From Spirochaetota bacterium (GTDB lineage Bacteria > Spirochaetota > UBA4802 > UBA5550), in the NCBI GenBank assembly GCA_017999915.1, contig JAGNKX010000003.1, forward strand, positions 124,001 to 188,000: a DNA stretch of 64,000 nucleotides. Direction: 5' to 3'. The notes under the pieces were generated by a model. It was given only the letters and a program-made list of their open reading frames with translations. It was not told the DNA's origin and did not search any database. Of the stretch, positions 21,575 through 49,967 are shown one piece after another (positions within the stretch are counted from its first letter, which is position 1; every line of letters begins with the position of its first letter). A program made the position numbers and the translations under genes.

Positions 21575-23788
21575 TCATTTCGACTCCGCAATCCCCGACC
21601 AGCTCGTGGGGTCGTGAGGACCATCGGCGGGCTTCACCGTCACCGGAATCCCCGTAAGGTGCGCCATACCCGACAGGGGGTCAAGACTGTCCGGCCCATC
21701 CGCCGCAAGGATATTGACGTTCACGCCCCGGGTCTTGCTCGCCACAGAGAGTCCCCGGGCCGGCTGGTGGCCCCAGCCATGGGGCAGTGCCACGGTGCCC
21801 GGCATCAGCTCTGAAAGGAACCTGACCGGGACGCGGACCTTGCCGGTCGCTGTGGACACGTCTGCGAAGGCCCCTTCAGTGAGGCCACCGTCGGCGGCGT
21901 CCGAAGGGTGCATGTAGAGATAGTTGGTGTTGTTGTCCCCGCTTACGAAATCCTCCAAATTGTGCATCCAGGAGTTATGGGTTCGGACGGCCCGTTTGGT
22001 AATGAGCTTTAATTGTCCCCGGCTCTTCAGTTCGTCGGAATAGATATTTTCCAGCGCCGCTGCTCTTTCTATAAAGTGCACCGGAGCGAGGTTGACCCTG
22101 CCGTTATCAGTCACGACCCTTTTACCCAGGAACGAATGTTCCCGGTGGGACGGCCGCAGAAACCCATGGGGATGGCGCAGCAGCTTTTTAAAGCCAGGCT
22201 GACCAAAGGAGCGGAGAAGCAGTCCCAGCATCCTCTCCGGGGTCAGAGCCATCCATCGGAAAAACATCGAGCTGCAGGCCCGCATGTTGAGGTTCATCAA
22301 TGCCTGGGCGAAACCGGAGCCGAAGAGGGGCGTTCCGCAGGCGCGGGCCAGGTCGCTGTACACCTCCCAGGGGTGGCGCTGCTCGCCGTCGCGCTCGAGA
22401 ATGGCCCGCGTCGCCTGCAGGTAGGGCCTGATCTGGAGCCCGCAAAAAAGCGGGAATATGAAAGGAATGCCGGGCATTTCAAAGAAGGAGGTGACCGGCA
22501 GAACATAGTGTGCCAGGGATGCGGTCTCGTTCTGGAAGATGTCCACCGAGACCAGCAGGTCGAGCTTTTTGAAGGCCTCGCTGACACGGGCGGAATTGGC
22601 CATGGTGTTCAGTGGATTGCCACCCGTGCAGAAGAGGGCCCTGATCTGACCCTGGCCGGGGGTCAGTATCTCGTCAGCCAGGAGGCCGCCGGGATAGCAG
22701 TCGCTCACCGAGGCGAAGCCGCCGATGCGGGAGCGGTCCTTCCGAAGAAGGAACCCGTGCTTTTTGCCTAGCTGTTCGAAGGAGGCGATGCCCTGTCCCA
22801 CGAGGGTCCCGCCGAAGCGGTCCAGGTTGCCCGTTATGGCGTTGATGACCTCCTGGAGCCAGAACGCCAGGGCCCCGTTGCGTCCCATGTTGACACCGGT
22901 TGAGGAATAGAGGGCCGCTCCGTCCGCTGCGAGGTATCCGCCCACGATGTCACGTAGTGTCGCAGGGGATATGCCGGTGACCTCCGCGGTGCGCTCCGGC
23001 GTCCAGGGCTCGACGATACTCCTCATCTCATCAAGGCCGTCCATGTATTCCCTGGTCCTGGAATGATTTATGGCGTCCCTCAGGAAGACCTCCCTTAGGA
23101 AGGAAAGGTAGAAGAAGACATCGGTATCGGGCCTGATGAAGACGTGCTCTCCCACGGCCCTGGCGGATTCGGTGCGGCGGGGGTCGATGAAAATGACGCG
23201 TCCGCCCCCCTCGACGATGGACTTCAGCTTTTTCACCGGATGGGGCAGCTGGAGAAAGCTGAATTTCGATATGGCCGGGTTGCCGCCGGCGATGACCAGG
23301 AACTTCGTGTTGGCGATGTCGGGGAAGGGCTGCGTGAAGGGAAAGCCGTAGAGGTGATGGGCCACCGCGAACTTGTTGGCGCAGTCCTGGGTGTGAGGCG
23401 AATACATCTGCTTCGTGCCGATGCCGGTCATGAACCCCTGGGCGAAGGCCGGGTGGAGCAGGTCGAAGCCGGTGGCCGTGCCCACATACATGCCGATGGA
23501 ATCCGGCCCGTGGGCCATCCGGAGACTCTTGATCTTCTCGCCGATTTCCCTGAGCGCCTGATCCCAGGATATCCGCCTGAATTCATTGCCTTCGCGCTTT
23601 AATGGATAACGCAACCGGTCCGCCGATTCGTAGATTTTGTGCTGCTTCAGGCCCTTCACGCAGGCATGGCCTTCAGTGGCCACATGGTCTTTATCCGCCT
23701 CGATCTTCTCCACGCGGTTGCCGTCAAGGGTTACCTTGAGGCCGCAGAGGCATTCGCAGATTCTGCAGAAAGTGTGTTCGGTTCTCAT
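21575..23788 (-). CDS. Molybdopterin-dependent oxidoreductase, single-subunit type
   Basis: 737 residues. The ATG at 23788 begins just before the [4Fe-4S] motif C8-x2-C11-x3-C15 (FCRICECLCG) with the fourth ligand in HACVKG at residue 43; the upstream extension has no such logic. YPLKREGNEFRRISWDQAL, FIDPRRTESARAVGEHVFIR, LFCTGGNPLNTMANS and LPHGWGHQPARGLSVASKTR are typical of the DMSO-reductase superfamily, near the formate dehydrogenase branch. There is no twin-arginine signal, so it is cytoplasmic. The active-site region reads SPHTQDCANKF rather than a formate dehydrogenase Sec/Cys-His motif, so the substrate is open. No electron-transfer subunit is adjacent. The codons for MALTPE carry one copy of the GGGGTCAGAGC word. 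Confidence 0.85.
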   Translation of the reverse strand: MRTEHTFCRICECLCGLKVTLDGNRVEKIEADKDHVATEGHACVKGLKQHKIYESADRLRYPLKREGNEFRRISWDQALREIGEKIKSLRMAHGPDSIGMYVGTATGFDLLHPAFAQGFMTGIGTKQMYSPHTQDCANKFAVAHHLYGFPFTQPFPDIANTKFLVIAGGNPAISKFSFLQLPHPVKKLKSIVEGGGRVIFIDPRRTESARAVGEHVFIRPDTDVFFYLSFLREVFLRDAINHSRTREYMDGLDEMRSIVEPWTPERTAEVTGISPATLRDIVGGYLAADGAALYSSTGVNMGRNGALAFWLQEVINAITGNLDRFGGTLVGQGIASFEQLGKKHGFLLRKDRSRIGGFASVSDCYPGGLLADEILTPGQGQIRALFCTGGNPLNTMANSARVSEAFKKLDLLVSVDIFQNETASLAHYVLPVTSFFEMPGIPFIFPLFCGLQIRPYLQATRAILERDGEQRHPWEVYSDLARACGTPLFGSGFAQALMNLNMRACSSMFFRWMALTPERMLGLLLRSFGQPGFKKLLRHPHGFLRPSHREHSFLGKRVVTDNGRVNLAPVHFIERAAALENIYSDELKSRGQLKLITKRAVRTHNSWMHNLEDFVSGDNNTNYLYMHPSDAADGGLTEGAFADVSTATGKVRVPVRFLSELMPGTVALPHGWGHQPARGLSVASKTRGVNVNILAADGPDSLDPLSGMAHLTGIPVTVKPADGPHDPTSWSGIAESK
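22239..22249 (+). repeat. Isolated GGGGTCAGAGC word inside the molybdopterin oxidoreductase
   Basis: An exact copy of the word that is clustered at 41.8-49.6 kb, here followed by C. It is in frame and encodes A-L-T-P on the coding (minus) strand. It is the only exact copy I found outside the cluster. Confidence 0.8.
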
Positions 23789-41822: not shown

Positions 41823-41864
41823 GGCTCTGACCCCCCGCCGGTCCGCGCTTCCCATCCAGCCCCG

Positions 41865-43115
41865 TTACGCAAGCCGGGCGCGCAAATAATCGACTATTGA
41901 ATCGGCTCTGACCCCCTCCTGGGCGCCGCTCTTCAGGTCCTTGACAGTGCAGGTGCCGGCCGCAAGCTCGTCTTCGCCGATGACCAGGGCGAAGGACGCG
42001 CCCTCCCGGTCCGCCTTCTTGAACTGGGCCTTGAATCCCTTGGAGCCGGGATCCATGTCAGCGGAGATGCCGCCGGCGCGCAGTGCTCCGCAGAGGGAGA
42101 CGGCCCGCTCCTGGGTAGCGCCGCCGGTGTGAACCAGGAATACGTCCACGCCGCCGCCTGATATCAAGCTCCCTTCAAGGAGCAGCTCCATCCGCTCTAT
42201 GCCCGCGGCGAAGCCCACGGCCGGAGTCGGCTTCCCGCCGAATTCCTCCACCAGGTTGTCATACCTGCCGCCAGCGGCGAAAGCGTTCTGGCCGCCCAGT
42301 CGCGAGGTGACGAACTCGAAGGTGGTCCTGGTATAGTAATCGAGGCCTCGGACGAGGAGGTGGTCCTCCGTAAAGGCGATGCCGCCGCCGGCGAGGTATT
42401 GCTTTACCGCGCCGTGGTGCGTTTTGCACTCGTCGCAGAGGAAGTTCGTTGTCTTCGGCGCGTCCTTCTTCAGGGGCTGGCACGAGTCCTGCTTGCAGTC
42501 CAGGAGGCGCAGGGGATTCCGGTCAAGGCGAGAGGCGCAGTCCTTGCAGAGGAGGTCCTTCATGCCGCTGTAATAGGCGGTGAGCTCTTTCACAAAATTG
42601 GGCCTGCAGGCCGGGCATCCGATGGAGTTGATGAGGAGCGTGTAATCGCCGACCCCGGCCTTCTTCGCGATGGCGTCCATCATGGCCATGGCCTCAAAGT
42701 CATGGTAGGGGTCAGAGCTACCGAAGAGCTCCGCGCCGAACTGGTTGAACTGGCGCAGGCGGCCCTTCTGGGGCCGCTCGGCCCTGAACATGGGCCCGAT
42801 GTAGAAGAACTTGCATGTGGCCAGGCGGTTGTACTCGCCGTTCTCGACGTAGGCTCGCACCACCGACGCGGTTCCTTCCGGACGGAGTGTGAGGCTGCGG
42901 CCGCCGCGGTCCTCGAAGGTGAACATCTCCTTGGACACGATGTCGGTCTCGTTGCCGAGGCCGCGCACGAAGACATCGGTGAACTCCATCACGGGGATGA
43001 TGATTTCCTTGAAATTGAACAGCCTGAAGGCTTCCCGGGCAGCGCTGACAACGTGGTTTCGCCGGTCGATCCTATCGGGGAATATATCTTCAATGCCTGG
43101 AGGTCGTGATAACAT
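41865..43115 (-). CDS. hisS: Histidyl-tRNA synthetase
   Basis: 416 residues, class II synthetase of the short bacterial type. Motif 2 lies in FFYIGPMFRAERPQKGRLRQ, and the histidine loops are LVRGLDYYTRTTFEF and AAGGRYDNLVEEFGG. A cysteine-rich insert (IGCPACRPNF, LLCKDCASRLD, FLCDECKTHH) is typical of this subgroup. The C-terminal anticodon domain ends at LKSGAQEGVRADSIVDYL. Two copies of the GGGGTCAGAGC word lie in frame, one encoding GVRA (41905-41915) and one encoding SSDP (42708-42718, in ELFGSSDPYHD). Synthetase function appears intact. Confidence 0.95.
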   Translation of the reverse strand: MLSRPPGIEDIFPDRIDRRNHVVSAAREAFRLFNFKEIIIPVMEFTDVFVRGLGNETDIVSKEMFTFEDRGGRSLTLRPEGTASVVRAYVENGEYNRLATCKFFYIGPMFRAERPQKGRLRQFNQFGAELFGSSDPYHDFEAMAMMDAIAKKAGVGDYTLLINSIGCPACRPNFVKELTAYYSGMKDLLCKDCASRLDRNPLRLLDCKQDSCQPLKKDAPKTTNFLCDECKTHHGAVKQYLAGGGIAFTEDHLLVRGLDYYTRTTFEFVTSRLGGQNAFAAGGRYDNLVEEFGGKPTPAVGFAAGIERMELLLEGSLISGGGVDVFLVHTGGATQERAVSLCGALRAGGISADMDPGSKGFKAQFKKADREGASFALVIGEDELAAGTCTVKDLKSGAQEGVRADSIVDYLRARLA

Positions 43116-43324
43116 TGTATAATCCTTAATTTTTATGCTTCTTAATACACTCCCGTAACGGGAGGTTGGAAGGGGTGACCCATAATGATGTCACCGTCGG
43201 TTATTATGTAACTAATGTGTCGCAGAGCGCGGTTTTTGTCAAGAGTACAATGGTAATTCGAAGAGATTTTTCATGTTGGGACAGCGATTATTATTCATGC
43301 GGCTAAGTTTAAAGATGATTAACA

Positions 43325-44545
43325 TTACCGTCTTCTTCGAAGAATCGCATGGTCTCCCATTTCGGGATCAAATCTAATAGTATAGATGGCATTGGGCCTC
43401 GCCATTTCCACGCTGTTATTTTCCGCATCGATTATATCCTTAACAGTGAACCGCCCGTCTCTGATCGAGTCGTTAATAGGAAAGATTGCCTCAACGGTTT
43501 CTCCGCGGTAAATGGGATTGAAGGTTTTGAACATGGGGACCCCGCGGGGGTCAGAGCTGGCCCTGTATCCGAGGAACATGGCCTTATTAATGTAATTGAT
43601 GCTTGAAAATCCCTTTCCATTGAATTCATTAAAGAGATTGTCAGTGTAGGGCCGGTGGCTCACCAGGTCAAGCTCCTCACGGTAAAAGGGGAGGCGCTTC
43701 TCGAACTCGGCTGTGCCAGCTGTGCGCACCGCGTCACGGTAGATCCTGGTCGTGTTGGCTGCATAATACACGGATTTCATCCTTCCCTCGATTTTGAAGG
43801 CTCTGACCCCGGCATCTATATACTGGCCGATTCGTTCGATAAGGCAGAGGTCTTTCGATGAGAGTATCTCCGTGCCGGCCCGACCCTCGATTATATCAAG
43901 GGGTTCTCCGGGCCTGCTTTCCTCCACGAGGGAATATCGCCACCGGCAGGCCTGGGCGCAATCACCCTGATTGGCGTCGCGGCCTGTGATGTACCGGCTC
44001 AGAAGACAGCGGCCTGAATAGGCGATGCAGAGGGCGCCATGGACGAAAACCTCGAGTTCCGCGTCGGTGTTTTCCTGAATCATGCGTATATCATCAATCG
44101 TAGCTTCCCGTGCAAGGACGATCCTGCTGATGCCGGCATTGTGCCAGAATCGGACTGCCAGGTGATTAAGGGTGGACATCTGGGTGGAGAGATGTACCGA
44201 ACAGGTCATGCCGGCTTCCCTGATAAGGGTCATCATGGCCGGATCGGATATCATGACCGCATCGAAGGGAATGGCTCTGACCCCGTTAATATACCGTTTT
44301 GCGGCGGAAATGTCCTTTTCGTGTAAGAAAGAATTCAGGAGGAATATGGCCTTGGCGTCATGGTCGTGGCAATAGCATACTCCTTCGTTGATGTCATCGA
44401 TGGAGAAATTGTCCGCCTGGGCCCGCAGGTTATGCTCTGACCCCCCGAAATACACGGAATCGGCCCCATATAGAACGGCAAATTTCAACTTTTCCAGGTT
44501 TCCTGCAGGGGCCACAATTTCTGGTAGTATGCATGAATTCTTCAT
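43325..44545 (-). CDS. U32 family peptidase-like RNA hydroxylation protein
   Basis: 406 residues. LPEIVAPAGNLEKLKFAVLY, GADSVYFGG and NLRAQADNF open the TIM-barrel. VFVHGALCIAYSGRCLLSRY followed by GDCAQACRWRY supplies four cysteines for an Fe-S cluster, and RAFKIEGRMKSVYYAANTTR closes the barrel. Relatives TrhP (tRNA U34) and RlhA (23S C2501) hydroxylate RNA; which RNA is the target here cannot be told, and old 'collagenase' labels are unlikely to be right. Four GGGGTCAGAGC words are in frame: GGSEHN, NGVRAI, AGVRAF and ASSDPRG. The first and second replace residues that vary in the family. No clear ribosome site precedes the ATG. Confidence 0.88.
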   Translation of the reverse strand: MKNSCILPEIVAPAGNLEKLKFAVLYGADSVYFGGSEHNLRAQADNFSIDDINEGVCYCHDHDAKAIFLLNSFLHEKDISAAKRYINGVRAIPFDAVMISDPAMMTLIREAGMTCSVHLSTQMSTLNHLAVRFWHNAGISRIVLAREATIDDIRMIQENTDAELEVFVHGALCIAYSGRCLLSRYITGRDANQGDCAQACRWRYSLVEESRPGEPLDIIEGRAGTEILSSKDLCLIERIGQYIDAGVRAFKIEGRMKSVYYAANTTRIYRDAVRTAGTAEFEKRLPFYREELDLVSHRPYTDNLFNEFNGKGFSSINYINKAMFLGYRASSDPRGVPMFKTFNPIYRGETVEAIFPINDSIRDGRFTVKDIIDAENNSVEMARPNAIYTIRFDPEMGDHAILRRRR

Positions 44546-44666
44546 AATATGGTATTAGCCAAAAATTTTATCATGGGAGCAAGTAAAAAATTTGAAATGA
44601 ATCGCCTGTAATAATTTTCCATCAAAGAATTTTTATCTGTAATTTTTTTGAGGTGATGTGCGTGAG

Positions 44667-44813
44667 AGGGTCAGAGCATGGTGGTATGATCCCGGGTTGA
44701 AGTAGGGGGTCGGAGCATACATCATGGGGGTCAGGCAATCCTAAAAAACGCTTCCTTAAAGAGAAGGCTCTGGCCCTATCTTTCCTGCCTCTCTTATCAT
44801 TGGCTCTGACCCC
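44667..44813. repeat. Repeat array upstream of the RAYT gene
   Basis: The 354-base gap between the U32 gene and the RAYT carries five copies of the word in 147 bases: AGGGTCAGAGC (44667), GGGGTCGGAGC (44706), GGGGGTCAGGC (about 44724), GGCTCTGGCCC (about 44765, inverted) and GCTCTGACCCC (44803, inverted). The mixed orientation and decay of the inner copies resemble a BIME-like array. The remaining bases are AT-rich and hold no gene. Confidence 0.7.
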
Positions 44814-44899
44814 CTGATTTCGCCTCATTTTGCCACAATTTTTTTCAAATCATCCGTTCTCAATCGTATACCCTTTAAATACGATCTATGGAGAACACA

Positions 44900-45517
44900 A
44901 TGCCACGACCAACTCGAAAAATCGCACAGGGATCAACCCATCACGCTTATTCCATGTGTCACGGAAAGAGAAATTTACTTCAAGGCAAATACGGAAAGAA
45001 ATATTTTATTGAGGCAATCACCTTGTGCCAGGAAAAATATGAATTCGAGCTCATCGCCGCTGAAATTGTCGCCAATCATATTCACCTCCTTATTAAAACC
45101 TGCGAGGACAAGGAAACAATATCCCGCATCATGCAATACATCAAGGCGAGAATTGCCGAGAAATACAATAAAGCCATGGGGAAAACCGGGGCATTCTGGA
45201 ATGGGCGATTCGGCTCAACCATCATTGAGGAGGCCGATAACCCGGAACAATATCTCCTATGGCTTCTCTGGTATATCGGATATAATCCTGTCAGGAAAAA
45301 ATTATCCCGGGACCCGCGGAAGAATGATATCGGATTTATCAACTGCTATCTTGATGAGAACTTCCAGGCGCCGCTTAAAATTACTCTGCATTATTTTTTC
45401 CTTAAACTGGGGGACTCATTTGAGGAGCGTGTTAAAAAGTTTCTCTTTTACGAGGAGGCCTATCGGAAGAGGCTGGCAATATATTTTTGGAATGCAGGCC
45501 AGGGGGTCAGAGCCTGA
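44900..45517 (+). CDS. REP-associated tyrosine transposase (RAYT, Y1/HUH family)
   Basis: 205 residues. The ATG at 44900 is chosen because GGAG lies 6 bases upstream; the ATG at 44888 would include that site. The HUH motif is IVANHIHLLIKT, and the candidate catalytic tyrosine lies in LLWYIGYNPVRKKLSR. The region GKTGAFWNGRFGSTIIEE is typical of RAYTs. Such single-copy IS200-like enzymes nick at REP hairpins and are thought to mobilise them. The last codons GGG-GTC-AGA-GCC-TGA are the repeated word followed by the stop, so the gene itself ends in its putative recognition word. The frame is intact. Confidence 0.88.
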   Translation: MPRPTRKIAQGSTHHAYSMCHGKRNLLQGKYGKKYFIEAITLCQEKYEFELIAAEIVANHIHLLIKTCEDKETISRIMQYIKARIAEKYNKAMGKTGAFWNGRFGSTIIEEADNPEQYLLWLLWYIGYNPVRKKLSRDPRKNDIGFINCYLDENFQAPLKITLHYFFLKLGDSFEERVKKFLFYEEAYRKRLAIYFWNAGQGVRA

Positions 45518-45707
45518 TAGGAATTTATAGTGGAAAAAATGGCTATGGAAGGAAATGTAAGAACATTAAGAACATTAAGAACAATAATTAACATCTGTGA
45601 AAAAACCAGAAATCATCCTACTATTAATAACAAAAATAACTGGACACCGTAAAATATCCGGCATAGCATATACCATGTTACATCTATATAAATCTTGGAG
45701 GATTTGT

Positions 45708-46625
45708 ATGAGAAAAATAGTGGGTATAGCGGTTATTGTTATCGCCCTGGTCGCAGTCATGGGGCCGGCGCCGGCAGGAGCGGTGCAGGTAAAGGTCGGT
45801 CTTTCTGGTATGTATGATATATGGGACCCTCCTTTCAAGGAGCTTCATTCAGGAAAATCAACCAGCCTCTTTTATGGCGGGATGAAGGATGATGATGACG
45901 GATCCCTCATGTTGGGACCGGCTTTGGGTCTCAAATGGGGAGGCTGGAGGATGGACCTCCAGGCGCTTTTCGGTGTTACGAAAAATGAATTCTCCTATAC
46001 AAACTTGAAGTGGGATTTGACGCTATGGAATTTAGCTCCATTCGGTGTGCCCATGTTGAACTATACGGTGGGCGATTCATCGGCCCGCCGCTACGATGTT
46101 GACGTTAAATTTGGCAAGAGCATTGTACAATACCTCTATATTAATTTCGGGGCCCGTTTCAATTACGCCAAGGGGAACGGTGATCAATTTCTGCTGCATC
46201 TGCCGCTGCAGATAAATTTCGGCGATTATGACTACAAGTATTTCCAGGTGGGGCCCCTTGTCGGAATAGGCTTTGAATACGAGATAAAGGGATTCTCCAT
46301 CTATTTCGATGTGAATGCTATCGTCAACTTCGGGAATCACAAATTTGAGCGCAAGTACCTGTTTCCCTTCCCCTGGTCATATGTTATGCCCTTCAAGTAT
46401 GATACAGACGTGATCGGCTTCGGCTTCGATACCGACGTCGGTATAGCCTATTTCATAGCACCGGCACACATCTCCATCGGAGCCGGATTCCGCTGGGTCG
46501 GCGTAGCCTGCACTCCCGGTGAGGACGACAGCTCAATGCTCGATTTTGCATACAAGAACAGCTGGGTGAAAGGCAAGTGGGACCATTTCTACGGATTCAC
46601 CTTCAATGTGAGCGCGAGATTTTAA
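45708..46625 (+). CDS. Outer-membrane beta-barrel protein of unknown function
   Basis: 305 residues. GGAGG lies 9 bases before the ATG at 45708. A signal peptide (VGIAVIVIALVAVMGPAPAG, cleavage near AGA-VQ) leads into Gly- and aromatic-rich amphipathic strands: LMLGPALGLKWGGWRMDLQA, IVQYLYINFGARFNYAKGN, YKYFQVGPLVGIGFEYEIKG and HISIGAGFRWVGVACT. The chain ends FTFNVSARF with terminal phenylalanine, as expected for Bam-inserted barrels. The family is not recognised. It is followed by a clear terminator. Confidence 0.8.
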   Translation: MRKIVGIAVIVIALVAVMGPAPAGAVQVKVGLSGMYDIWDPPFKELHSGKSTSLFYGGMKDDDDGSLMLGPALGLKWGGWRMDLQALFGVTKNEFSYTNLKWDLTLWNLAPFGVPMLNYTVGDSSARRYDVDVKFGKSIVQYLYINFGARFNYAKGNGDQFLLHLPLQINFGDYDYKYFQVGPLVGIGFEYEIKGFSIYFDVNAIVNFGNHKFERKYLFPFPWSYVMPFKYDTDVIGFGFDTDVGIAYFIAPAHISIGAGFRWVGVACTPGEDDSSMLDFAYKNSWVKGKWDHFYGFTFNVSARF

Positions 46626-46651
46626 GTAGAGGTTTCATATGAAATGATTCA

Positions 46652-46680
46652 TAACGCGGCGGGGTTTTTCCGCCGCGTTA
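46652..46680 (+). terminator. Intrinsic terminator
   Basis: TAACGCGGCGG, loop GGTTTTT, CCGCCGCGTTA, then TTTGTTT. It lies 27 bases after the stop of the outer-membrane protein. Confidence 0.85.
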
Positions 46681-46712
46681 TTTGTTTAATATCGTAAACA
46701 TGGGGGGAATCC

Positions 46713-48449
46713 ATGAACGGCGGCATGGTCATTGCTGAAATACTAAAGGAGGAAGGGGTCCGTCATGTTTTTACACTCTGCGGAGGGCACATTTCACCTA
46801 TCCTCGTGGGATGCAAGAATGAAGGCATAAAGGTTATTGATTGTCGTCATGAGGTTACAGCTGTCTTTGCGGCCGATGCGTCCGCCCGCATCACAGGAAT
46901 TCCCGGCGTTGCCATTGTGACGGCCGGGCCGGGCGTCACAAACACTATTACAGCGCTGGTCAACGCCCTCCATGCGCAGACACCCATGGTGCTCCTTGGA
47001 GGGGCGGCAGCAACAGTGTTAAAAGGAAGAGGATCCCTCCAGGATATTGACCAACTGGGTCTCCTCAAAGCCGCTGTGAAGCGCACCCTGACAATCAGAA
47101 AAAATTGCGATATTATTCCTGTAGTGCAGAGCGCTTTCAGGATCGCACGGTCCGGCGTTCAGGGGCCGGTCTTTGTCGAGTGCCCCATAGATTTGCTCTA
47201 TGATGAAAAGACTGTAAGGGAGATGTACGGGACTAAAAGCGGCGGCCCGGCCGCCGCCGGCCTGCGGACCAGGATCCTTAACTTCTATTTGCGCCGTCAC
47301 GTTGACAGAATGTTTGCCTGTGATCTGGAATCCGTGAAACTGGAATCGATACCAACTGCTGAAAAGAACTTCAGCCGGCACAGCGTAGGCCGTGTAGCGG
47401 CGATGGTTGCCCGGGCCGAAAGGCCTCTCATGATTGTGGGAAGCCAGGCTCTGACCCTGCCGCGCGAGGCTGCATCATTGGCCGGTGCCGTGAGACGCCT
47501 CGGAGTGCCGGTCTATCTCACCGGAACTGCCCGGGGGCTCCTCGGCGCCAATGATCCTATCCAGTTCAGGCACCGGCGCAAGGATGCTCTTCGTGACGCG
47601 GACCTGGTTATCCTGGCCGGCGTTCCCTGCGATTTTCGCCTCAATTACGGCCGTGACATCAGCGGGCACGCAAAGCTCGTATCGATCAACCGGAGCCGCA
47701 GGGACATGGTTTTAAACAGAAGGCCCGATGTAGGGATACACACCGATCCTTCCCTGTTTCTCCGGGCCCTCGGGGAGGCATTCCCACGGGGTTCCACAGA
47801 CAGAGCCTCCTGGCTGGCTGCTCTCCACGGACGCGAGCTTGAGCGCGAAGCTGAGATAGACTCCTTGTCCGGGGAATCCGGCGATCTGGTCAACCCCGTG
47901 CTTCTGCTAAAGAAAATCGCCGCGCGCATGGGAGAAAAATCGATAATCGTGGCGGATGGCGGCGATTTCGTTGGCACAGCGTCCTATATCCTCCGCCCGC
48001 CGGCTCCTCTGTCATGGCTCGATCCGGGCGTCTTCGGCACACTGGGGGTTGGGGGAGGATTTGCCATCGGCGCGTCCCTTTGCCGTCCTGAACGGGAGAT
48101 ATGGATCATTTATGGTGACGGTGCGGCAGGGTACAGTATCCAGGAATTTGACACCTTTGCGCGCCATGGGATTCCGGTAATAGCCATTATCGGCAACGAC
48201 GCCTGTTGGAGCCAGATATACCGAGACCAGGTTGAAATCCTGGGCGACCCCGTGGGGACAGAGCTTAACTATTCGGATTACCAGAGGGTCGCCGAGGCCT
48301 ACGGTGGAGCCGGGTTTGTCATAAGCAGCGCCGGAGAGATCGACGCTGTGCTTGATGCGGCCCTGGATGCCCTGAAAAAAGGGAAACCTGTGATAGTCAA
48401 TGCGAAGATCAGTAAAACCGATTTCCGGAAAGGTTCGATTTCAATGTGA
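46713..48449 (+). CDS. ThDP-dependent enzyme, ILVBL/2-hydroxyacyl-CoA lyase-like
   Basis: 578 residues with the three-domain fold of acetolactate synthases. The N-terminal half (GVRHVFTLCGGHISPILVG, DCRHEVTAVFAADASARITG, TAGPGVTNTITALVNA, GRGSLQDIDQLGLL, GPVFVECPIDLLY) follows animal ILVBL (HACL2) more closely than IlvB. The C-terminal ThDP motif is IYGDGAAGYSIQEFDTFARH followed by IGNDACWSQIYRDQ. ILVBL cleaves 2-hydroxyacyl-CoA; oxalyl-CoA decarboxylase is a related option. The substrate here is unproven. GGGGG lies before the ATG. One word copy is in frame (QALTLP at 47448). The next gene is a sirtuin. Confidence 0.85.
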   Translation: MNGGMVIAEILKEEGVRHVFTLCGGHISPILVGCKNEGIKVIDCRHEVTAVFAADASARITGIPGVAIVTAGPGVTNTITALVNALHAQTPMVLLGGAAATVLKGRGSLQDIDQLGLLKAAVKRTLTIRKNCDIIPVVQSAFRIARSGVQGPVFVECPIDLLYDEKTVREMYGTKSGGPAAAGLRTRILNFYLRRHVDRMFACDLESVKLESIPTAEKNFSRHSVGRVAAMVARAERPLMIVGSQALTLPREAASLAGAVRRLGVPVYLTGTARGLLGANDPIQFRHRRKDALRDADLVILAGVPCDFRLNYGRDISGHAKLVSINRSRRDMVLNRRPDVGIHTDPSLFLRALGEAFPRGSTDRASWLAALHGRELEREAEIDSLSGESGDLVNPVLLLKKIAARMGEKSIIVADGGDFVGTASYILRPPAPLSWLDPGVFGTLGVGGGFAIGASLCRPEREIWIIYGDGAAGYSIQEFDTFARHGIPVIAIIGNDACWSQIYRDQVEILGDPVGTELNYSDYQRVAEAYGGAGFVISSAGEIDAVLDAALDALKKGKPVIVNAKISKTDFRKGSISM

Positions 48450-48508
48450 TGCTCTGACCCCAACGGAAGGCTCTGCCCCCCCCCCATTAGGGTGGCAAGT
48501 GGACACGA

Positions 48509-49249
48509 ATGGAATCCATAAAAGATGCCCGGTCAATAATTTCGAAATCCCATTACCTTGCTGCCCTCACCGGGGCCGGGATTTCAGCGGGGAGCGGCAT
48601 CCCAGCGTTCAGGGGCAGGGGCGGCCTGTGGCAGGTGTACGATCCGGCCCTTGCGCGCATCGACGTGTTCAGGGACAATCCGCACCTTGTGTGGGATATG
48701 ACCCGGGAGCTCATAGCATTAATTGAGGGGTCAGAGCCCAATCCAGCTCATCGCGCACTGGCGGAAATGGAGCGTGGCGGTGTCCTCAAGGGTCTTGTCA
48801 CCCAGAACATCGACAACCTTCACCAACGCGCGGGCAGCAGGAGCATTATCGAGCTCCATGGCACTATCGGGAATCTCCGCTGTCTCACCTGTAATACTGT
48901 TTTTAATAGCGCGGATTTTAAAATCATGGATGAAGATCCGCTCTGTCCCCATTGTTCAGCCGTGTTAAAGCCGGGCATGGTTTTCTTCGGCGAAGCTTTG
49001 CCCTTCGGCGCCCTCATGGAAGCCCGGCTCCTTGCCGGCACGGCTGACGCGATGCTGATCATAGGAACATCGGCCGTCGTAAACCCTGCTGCCGAGCTGC
49101 CGGTCGTGGCCAAGGGGAACCGTGCGAAGATCATCGAGATCAACATAGAGCCTACGGGGCTTACCAATTCAATCACAGATGTATTTATCCGCGGCAGGGC
49201 CGAAGAGGTGCTGCCGGATCTTCTCGGCACCATGCCGCCCCATGGGTAA
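48509..49249 (+). CDS. Sir2 family NAD-dependent protein deacylase
   Basis: 246 residues. The Rossmann part has LTGAGISAGSGIPAFRG and LVTQNIDNLHQRAGS, with the catalytic histidine in IELHGTIGNLRCLTC. The zinc ribbon cysteines are LRCLTC and PLCPHC, and PGMVFFGEALP and IIGTSAVVNPAAELP follow. It removes acetyl or longer acyl groups from lysine using NAD. It lies 59 bases after the ThDP enzyme, with two word copies (one exact, one variant) between them, and one copy in frame at EGSEPNPAH. The loop around that copy is variable in the family. No ribosome site is obvious. Confidence 0.92.
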   Translation: MESIKDARSIISKSHYLAALTGAGISAGSGIPAFRGRGGLWQVYDPALARIDVFRDNPHLVWDMTRELIALIEGSEPNPAHRALAEMERGGVLKGLVTQNIDNLHQRAGSRSIIELHGTIGNLRCLTCNTVFNSADFKIMDEDPLCPHCSAVLKPGMVFFGEALPFGALMEARLLAGTADAMLIIGTSAVVNPAAELPVVAKGNRAKIIEINIEPTGLTNSITDVFIRGRAEEVLPDLLGTMPPHG

Positions 49250-49502
49250 ACATGAGTGGAAAAAAGGGGTCAGAGCCTGGTCCGGGGAAAAATCCTCAAA
49301 AAAGGGGGTCAGAGCCCGGCTTGAGAGAGCCCGGTTTGATGACAAAGCTTTGTCCTGGAATCATGGCCTCACCTGAGCACAGAAGATGTGCGGCTTTTAT
49401 TTCTTGACATGCTTTGAACCGAAGATATTATACAGGACAAGGTCGGACAATCCCGGCCGTCGTACGCCGCCGAAATTCATCGATCCAGCCCGGAGGTTTT
49501 CC

Positions 49503-49967
49503 GTGAAACACCTCAATATGTGTAATATATTTATTATCCTTTCGGTGGTTCTATCGGTTTCCCATGGTGCCGCCCAGGAGGGAATGGAGGGGGGTCAGAG
49601 CATCAAATACAAGGTGATGAAAGGCTTTGCCGAAGCGAATTCGGTGAAGTACCCGGTCATTATAGGCATAAGGGAGGTTGATTCGACCCGGTTCGGCGGA
49701 ATTACCTTTGCTCTGATCCAGAAGAACCATAAGCAGGCCCTGCTCGTGGCAGAAAAGATCAAGAGATTCTATCTGGGGAAAAAGATCGGCACCGTTGCCC
49801 TGCCGTCGTTTAAAAAGGTCACCAAGCCAGAAACCATGGCATGGAATTCCATAAAGTGCGGCAGCGGCGATGAAGGGGCCCACGCTGTCGTGAAGGTCGA
49901 TGATAAAACCGTCACCGTGTACCTGCTCCCTTCCTGTGATGAAGGGGTGCTGGCCATGATACTGTAA
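49503..49967 (+). CDS. Small secreted protein of unknown function
   Basis: 154 residues from a GTG at 49503, chosen because GGAGG lies 6 bases upstream. The N-terminus VKHLNMCNIFIILSVVLS.. is a signal peptide ending near GAA-QE. The mature protein has VKYPVIIGIREVDSTRFGG, then LIQKNHKQALLVAEKIKRFY and a late cysteine pair (SIKCGSGDEG, LPSCDEGV) that may form a disulfide. I do not recognise a family. A word copy at 49591 encodes GGQS right after the signal peptide region. It lies 32 bases upstream of the LEA-2 lipoprotein. Confidence 0.7.
   Translation: MKHLNMCNIFIILSVVLSVSHGAAQEGMEGGQSIKYKVMKGFAEANSVKYPVIIGIREVDSTRFGGITFALIQKNHKQALLVAEKIKRFYLGKKIGTVALPSFKKVTKPETMAWNSIKCGSGDEGAHAVVKVDDKTVTVYLLPSCDEGVLAMIL

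Follow-up and report, generated by a model that had tools for sequence, protein, structure and literature searches.

An 11-nt word clustered around TIRYT-type RAYT genes, and apparently substituted into coding sequence, suggests a transposase family that writes its own recognition repeat into nearby DNA

HUH enzymes of the Y1 class, such as TnpAREP and the transposases of IS200/IS605, cut and join single-stranded DNA at short cognate sites (PMC8266576). The RAYT or TnpAREP proteins of E. coli and Pseudomonas resemble the protein considered below in being HUH Y1 enzymes with the Y---NP motif and the fold of 4er8, and likewise have enzyme-specific short repeats that form inverted pairs near the gene; their REPs are extragenic palindromes of 20-60 nt, which in P. 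fluorescens occur mostly as doublets, with singles being more decayed (PMC3116915, PMC8266576). TIRYTs, or TIRtrons, comprise a RAYT-like Y1 transposase and non-REP terminal inverted repeats with the motif GGGGWSAS, and further copies of the repeat, single, in dimers or in groups, are scattered over the genome, as is also the case here (Di Nocera 2013, PMC3733652). Most described TIRYTs have been assigned to TnpAY1 subclass 2.1, or RAYT group 1, for which no REP has been found (PMC6006769).

The function of group 1 or TIRYT-type RAYTs, and the manner in which RAYT-linked repeats multiply, are questions on which the findings below bear. The RAYT groups were reportedly defined by Bertels in 2017. 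We analysed a window of 64,000 nt from a Spirochaetota bacterium (GCA_017999915.1, contig JAGNKX010000003.1, positions 124,001 to 188,000 of the forward strand), in which a short word is clustered around a RAYT gene. Short words that are abundant in genes are familiar from HIP1 and from DNA uptake sequences; these are genome-wide, whereas the words described here cluster round a transposase copy and match the dialect of that copy. TIRYTs and GGGGWSAS repeats are already known, and the new features are the decay of word density with distance, the per-copy dialects, overwriting within genes, the appearance of words in one step, their persistence and the clusters around RAYT stubs. Relative to the accessible text on TIRYTs (PMC3733652), the clustering round the gene, overwriting in coding sequence, per-copy dialects and conservation of single words are described only here. 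The open-access literature yielded only unrelated papers on the word itself, and no earlier description was found there of genes being locally overwritten or of dialects that differ per copy. Our analyses suggest that this enzyme family writes its own recognition word into nearby DNA.

The 11-mer GGGGTCAGAGC, hereafter the word, occurs in 14 exact copies between positions 41824 and 49601 of the window, in both orientations, and the 10-mer GGGTCAGAGC in 16, which matches the 16 copies in 7.8 kb counted in an initial annotation. Across the 64 kb there are 21 matches with at most one mismatch, against a mean of 1.34 and a largest value of 5 in dinucleotide shuffles; these comprise the 14 exact copies of the cluster, a solitary exact copy on the forward strand at 22239..22249 and six copies with one mismatch, two of which (AGGGTCAGAGC at 44667 and 47448) deviate at base 1 only. 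The scan therefore confirmed what had been noted of the two orientations and of 22239 as the sole further exact copy. The whole genome (5.46 Mb) holds 116 exact copies (57 + 59), compared with 0 + 1 for the reversed control, and 14 of the 116 lie inside approximately 10.6 kb (binomial P = 4e-21); the reversed word occurs 0-2 times in every genome. Among genomes with a clade RAYT, called at E<=1e-25, 31 of 34 have at least five exact words, against 3 of 25 genomes without one (Fisher 5e-10). Both yardsticks proposed with the initial annotation were thus answered in favour of a RAYT-linked repeat: genome-wide density is far above background, and the word is not equally common where the RAYT is absent. 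Chance and base composition were ruled out as the source of the cluster by the shuffles, the reversed control and permuted words, and a repeat at the protein level was rejected because copies differ in reading frame and lie on either strand.

The cluster surrounds a gene at 44888..45517 (forward strand) encoding a TIRYT-type HUH Y1 transposase of 209 aa (Pfam Y1_Tnp, 6.7e-12). The protein has an NHIH motif (H64, H66) and the catalytic Y129 in WYIGYNP, all three residues being invariant in 24 relatives, among which the key motifs are NH[IF]H, FWNERF and Y[IL][GA][YF]NP; it therefore carries the HUH motif and the tyrosine followed by NP (YIGYNP) of RAYTs and class 2 TnpAY1. The top PDB match of an AF2 model (pLDDT 86) is 4er8, E. 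coli TnpAREP, with E 1.8e-6. The NCBIfam model REP_Tyr_transpos (NF047646) scores 58.8 bits on this protein, the cut-off being 80, and matches 24 of 24 members at E<=1e-3. By eye, the motifs do not exactly match the subclass 2.1 signature in Table 1 of PMC6006769, and the Pfam scan of the protein gave no match to an HTH model, subclass 2.1 having a C-terminal HTH-like extension. Cleavage and joining of cognate ssDNA would be its predicted activity. Further RAYT relatives, full or partial, are present in the genome of the window; in G000, a second clade RAYT is apparently split by an assembly gap, between the right end of contig C15 and the left end of C22, and words lie to either side of it.

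The left terminal inverted repeat, GGCTCTGACCCCCTG (44802..44816, reverse strand), is 100% complementary to the right one, CAGGGGGTCAGAGCC (45500..45514, forward strand), which overlaps the final RAYT codons and just beyond which homology to the nearest relative, G003, stops. Since this perfect 15-bp inverted repeat flanks the RAYT and contains the word, the word is the terminal repeat of the RAYT element; the in-gene words of the window have no such pairing. The repeat is non-REP and includes GGGGWSAS in the form of GGGGTCAG, as in TIRYTs, and at 19 of 43 loci the inverted match that scored best was a repeat with the word or a dialect of it. Immediately upstream, at 44667..44813, words at 44667 and 44706 (forward), a degenerate one at 44767 and another at 44803 (both reverse) can form an inverted pair; the predicted DNA fold of this interval has a 13-bp stem, with an overall z of only -1.29. 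Unlike REPs and REPINs, which are extragenic 20-60 nt palindromes with a GTAG-type tag, the word is of 10-12 nt, has no palindrome of its own and near the RAYT is mostly in genes (82 of 120 words at 0.3-5 kb from a RAYT lie inside ORFs, by rough ORF calls) and mostly single (no further word lies within 100 bp of 69 of the 105 gene words). This supports the suggestion of the initial annotation that the repeat is RAYT-linked, shorter than a REP and spread through genes; its remark that there is no palindrome holds for the word itself but not at the RAYT, where the word lies within the 15-bp inverted repeat.

Many copies in the window replace sequence within genes. The first, at the N-terminus of a GNAT acetyltransferase gene (41824..41834, reverse), is not cleanly alignable. 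In hisS the word has overwritten 41905..41915 (reverse; GVRA), where G003 has GCGGTCGGCGC, and, on the other strand, 42708..42718 (forward; SSDP), where 13 orthologues align gap-free and AGC TCT GAC CCC stands against AGC GGC GAC CCC in G003, several relatives having the latter or a sequence near it. The gene for a U32 peptidase has a word at 43547..43557 (forward; nt 989), where the sequence is variable and gaps lie close by, and another at 43800..43810 (reverse), where alignment to G003 shows GVRA for GVDA (GGG GTC AGA GCC here, GGC GTC GAC GCC there). The U32 words overwritten at 44274..44284 (reverse; nt 262) and 44434..44444 (reverse; nt 102, GGSEH) are both common to G003 only, which has a RAYT at the same place. 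On the far side of the RAYT, by alignment, the AGGGTCAGAGC form has overwritten 47448..47458 (reverse) in a gene for a TPP-dependent enzyme; a word at 48451..48461 (reverse) is intergenic between this gene and a Sir2 gene, and the Sir2 gene itself is overwritten at 48727..48737 (forward), the word being absent from G003 at the aligned codons. The word scan added two intergenic direct copies 39 bp apart (49266..49315, forward) and one at 49591..49601 (forward) in a 193-aa ORF with no assigned function.

Sampled loci around RAYTs, in place of genome-wide gene-level statistics, gave a comparable picture. At 29 gene sites from five clusters in four genomes, 20 have orthologues that are gap-free over ±30 nt; divergence from the nearest orthologue is 0.50 within the word and 0.33 in the flanks, with sharp borders beyond which the flank level returns. 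On these alignments, the alignable gene copies are 11-nt replacements without indels. The other nine sites fall where the alignment is gapped, variable or poor, and some insertions may thus occur as well. The syntenic region of G003 has a RAYT, while in G001, G002, G004 and G005 the search located the hisS-U32 neighbours and reported no RAYT match in that region. Sites were already more word-like before the word than random positions are (5.8 versus 8.1 mismatches), as guided targeting predicts, although purifying selection that filters gains could produce the same. The ancestral match at the 3' GC of the word is 0.65-0.70, a weak hint, and 3'-end matching was dropped as proof of oligonucleotide priming. 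The missing antisense TGA frame among ORF words, considered as a sign of stop-codon selection, proved to be an artefact of ORF definition.

The named relatives are uncultured MAGs, nearly all labelled Spirochaetota. RAYT-bearing genomes with fewer than five words are G006, G008 and G011; around the RAYTs of the first two, related words of a different dialect are present; conversely, G014, G031 and G044 (completeness 96, 89 and 73%) have words and no detected clade RAYT, possibly through loss of the RAYT or missing contigs. An unsupervised 9-mer scan of 40 loci of up to 20 kb ranked the word, or the variant of it belonging to the locus, first or close to first in most, not all. Word density peaks in the 200 bp upstream of the RAYT, is raised to approximately 3 kb and then falls towards background, the upstream 5-10 kb bins being somewhat raised, in part because of arrays. 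A variant present within 300 bp of a RAYT is usually also the variant found at 0.3-6 kb. In G016, four loci have GGTCAGAGC both near and far, while at a fifth the form is GCTCAGAGT, with 5 copies near and 5 far; with dialects differing per RAYT copy inside one genome, a single genome-wide functional motif is unlikely. Clusters can outlast the RAYT: in four clusters of G016 that lack an intact RAYT, stubs of the gene lie next to a word, and two further ones had no RAYT trace. At some dialect loci (L092, L098) copies are only intergenic, by rough ORF calls. G025 and its genus (G029, G034, G037, G041) have many RAYT copies and fragments, G025 alone giving more than 100 DNA matches to one element region.

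The word seems to appear whole. Over 211 kb of sequence situated 0.3-5 kb from one of 23 RAYTs, with expectations drawn from permuted words, the exact 11-mer was observed 83 times against 0.14 expected (593-fold). There were 49 one-mismatch forms, 37 of which deviate at base 1 only, and forms with two mismatches were not in excess (42 observed, 61 expected), which speaks against a stepwise build-up, since that would be expected to leave intermediates. The flanks carry nearly no information beyond R-GGGTCAGAGC-H. Of 44 words that can be compared between species, being recognisable in both, 38 are perfect, whereas 12 ± 2.7 would be predicted from the divergence of the flanks; either recurrent rewriting or selection could account for this persistence. 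Faster decay of words following RAYT loss looked suggestive at first, from a difference in RAYT-stub clusters (P = 0.002), but this difference was carried by one variant, T4A/G, and disappears without it (P = 0.46). Loci of G016 with no intact RAYT (L315-L319, L325) are enriched in GGGACAGAGC, a variant in which A replaces T at the fourth position of the 10-mer and which may be an older dialect.

We regard it as an even call that the word serves a TIRYT-type RAYT as its terminal recognition repeat and spreads locally by overwriting word-like sequence near the gene. Beside the observed association, substitution and dialect matching, we infer the enzymology as follows. The HUH enzyme, close to its own gene, would nick single-stranded near-cognate sites, and repair or template switching would then copy the cognate word into the nicked site, giving a changed tract of about 9-11 nt; in a variant of this scheme, the enzyme would free an oligonucleotide of the length of the word, for incorporation into the nascent lagging strand. 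Words would be perfect between species because they are repeatedly rewritten. Rather more tentatively, and with somewhat less than even confidence, we propose that these TIRYT-type RAYTs may be local sequence writers, whose own 11-nt word is set and maintained on near-cognate sites within a few kb, in one step and without insertion, leaving a per-copy dialect in coding DNA. This explanation is drawn from comparing the sequences of uncultured MAGs. Enzyme and repeat leave a readable trace: the substitutions end sharply after 11 nt, the dialects match, and density follows a gradient with distance. Should RAYT catalysis be responsible, a system derived from a transposase would be editing the nearby chromosome with no DNA inserted; it would supply housekeeping proteins with multi-residue changes and might serve as a basis for tools that write short patches of DNA.

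Dissemination resembling that of REPINs, TIRs or MITEs, in which the RAYT would insert words as small elements or as solo ends and selection would tolerate the in-gene insertions, seems unlikely as the general explanation. Inverted word pairs 26-84 bp apart do recur next to RAYTs, tandem or paired words are found between genes, RAYT elements with internal deletions exist, nine gene sites are gapped, and TIR families occurring as monomers, dimers and clusters have been published (PMC3733652). Yet an 11-bp insertion would cause a frameshift, whereas 20 of the 29 gene sites are gap-free substitutions, nothing is common outside the word and most gene words are single. Insertion of small elements was accordingly rejected as the source of all gene copies; such dissemination is refuted for the aligned gene copies and likely explains part of the intergenic ones.

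Selection for a useful protein-binding site, of the RAYT or of the host, with point mutations being retained as for uptake sequences, Chi, parS or HIP1, would suit the conservation of words between species beyond their flanks and their word-like ancestors. We consider it quite improbable, given that two-mismatch intermediates are not in excess, that copies cluster round each RAYT and RAYT stub, that dialect tracks the local RAYT copy and not the genome, and that the genes concerned are unrelated and contain words in several frames and on either strand. A comparably low probability attaches to template switching by the host between short repeats, a correction of the quasipalindrome type for which the RAYT merely founds copies via its terminal repeats. 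Such switching alters several bases at once and leaves length unchanged, and words near RAYTs are often in inverted or direct arrays; however, known events span roughly 100-200 nt and the copies are spread over kilobases, while other short repeats are rarely at the top in de novo scans of GGGTCAGAGC-type loci, the exception being one palindrome family.

A second short repeat, the palindrome CGATAACTATCG, was seen at L071 (G000:C5:140500-144500) and also at L070; at L071 it occurs six times, five of them within approximately 200 bp in one long ORF, interleaved with GGGGTCAGAGC. A word related to this palindrome, GCGATAGTT, is enriched in G025 (L109). In plasmid pTPELB2 of Acetoanaerobium noterae (L328, 3.8-11.3 kb), a RAYT-like gene of 26% identity lies amid eight copies of GGGACGGT, which are mostly intergenic and have a longer shared context. 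A Skermanella plasmid yielded only a few copies, most of them immediately upstream of the gene.
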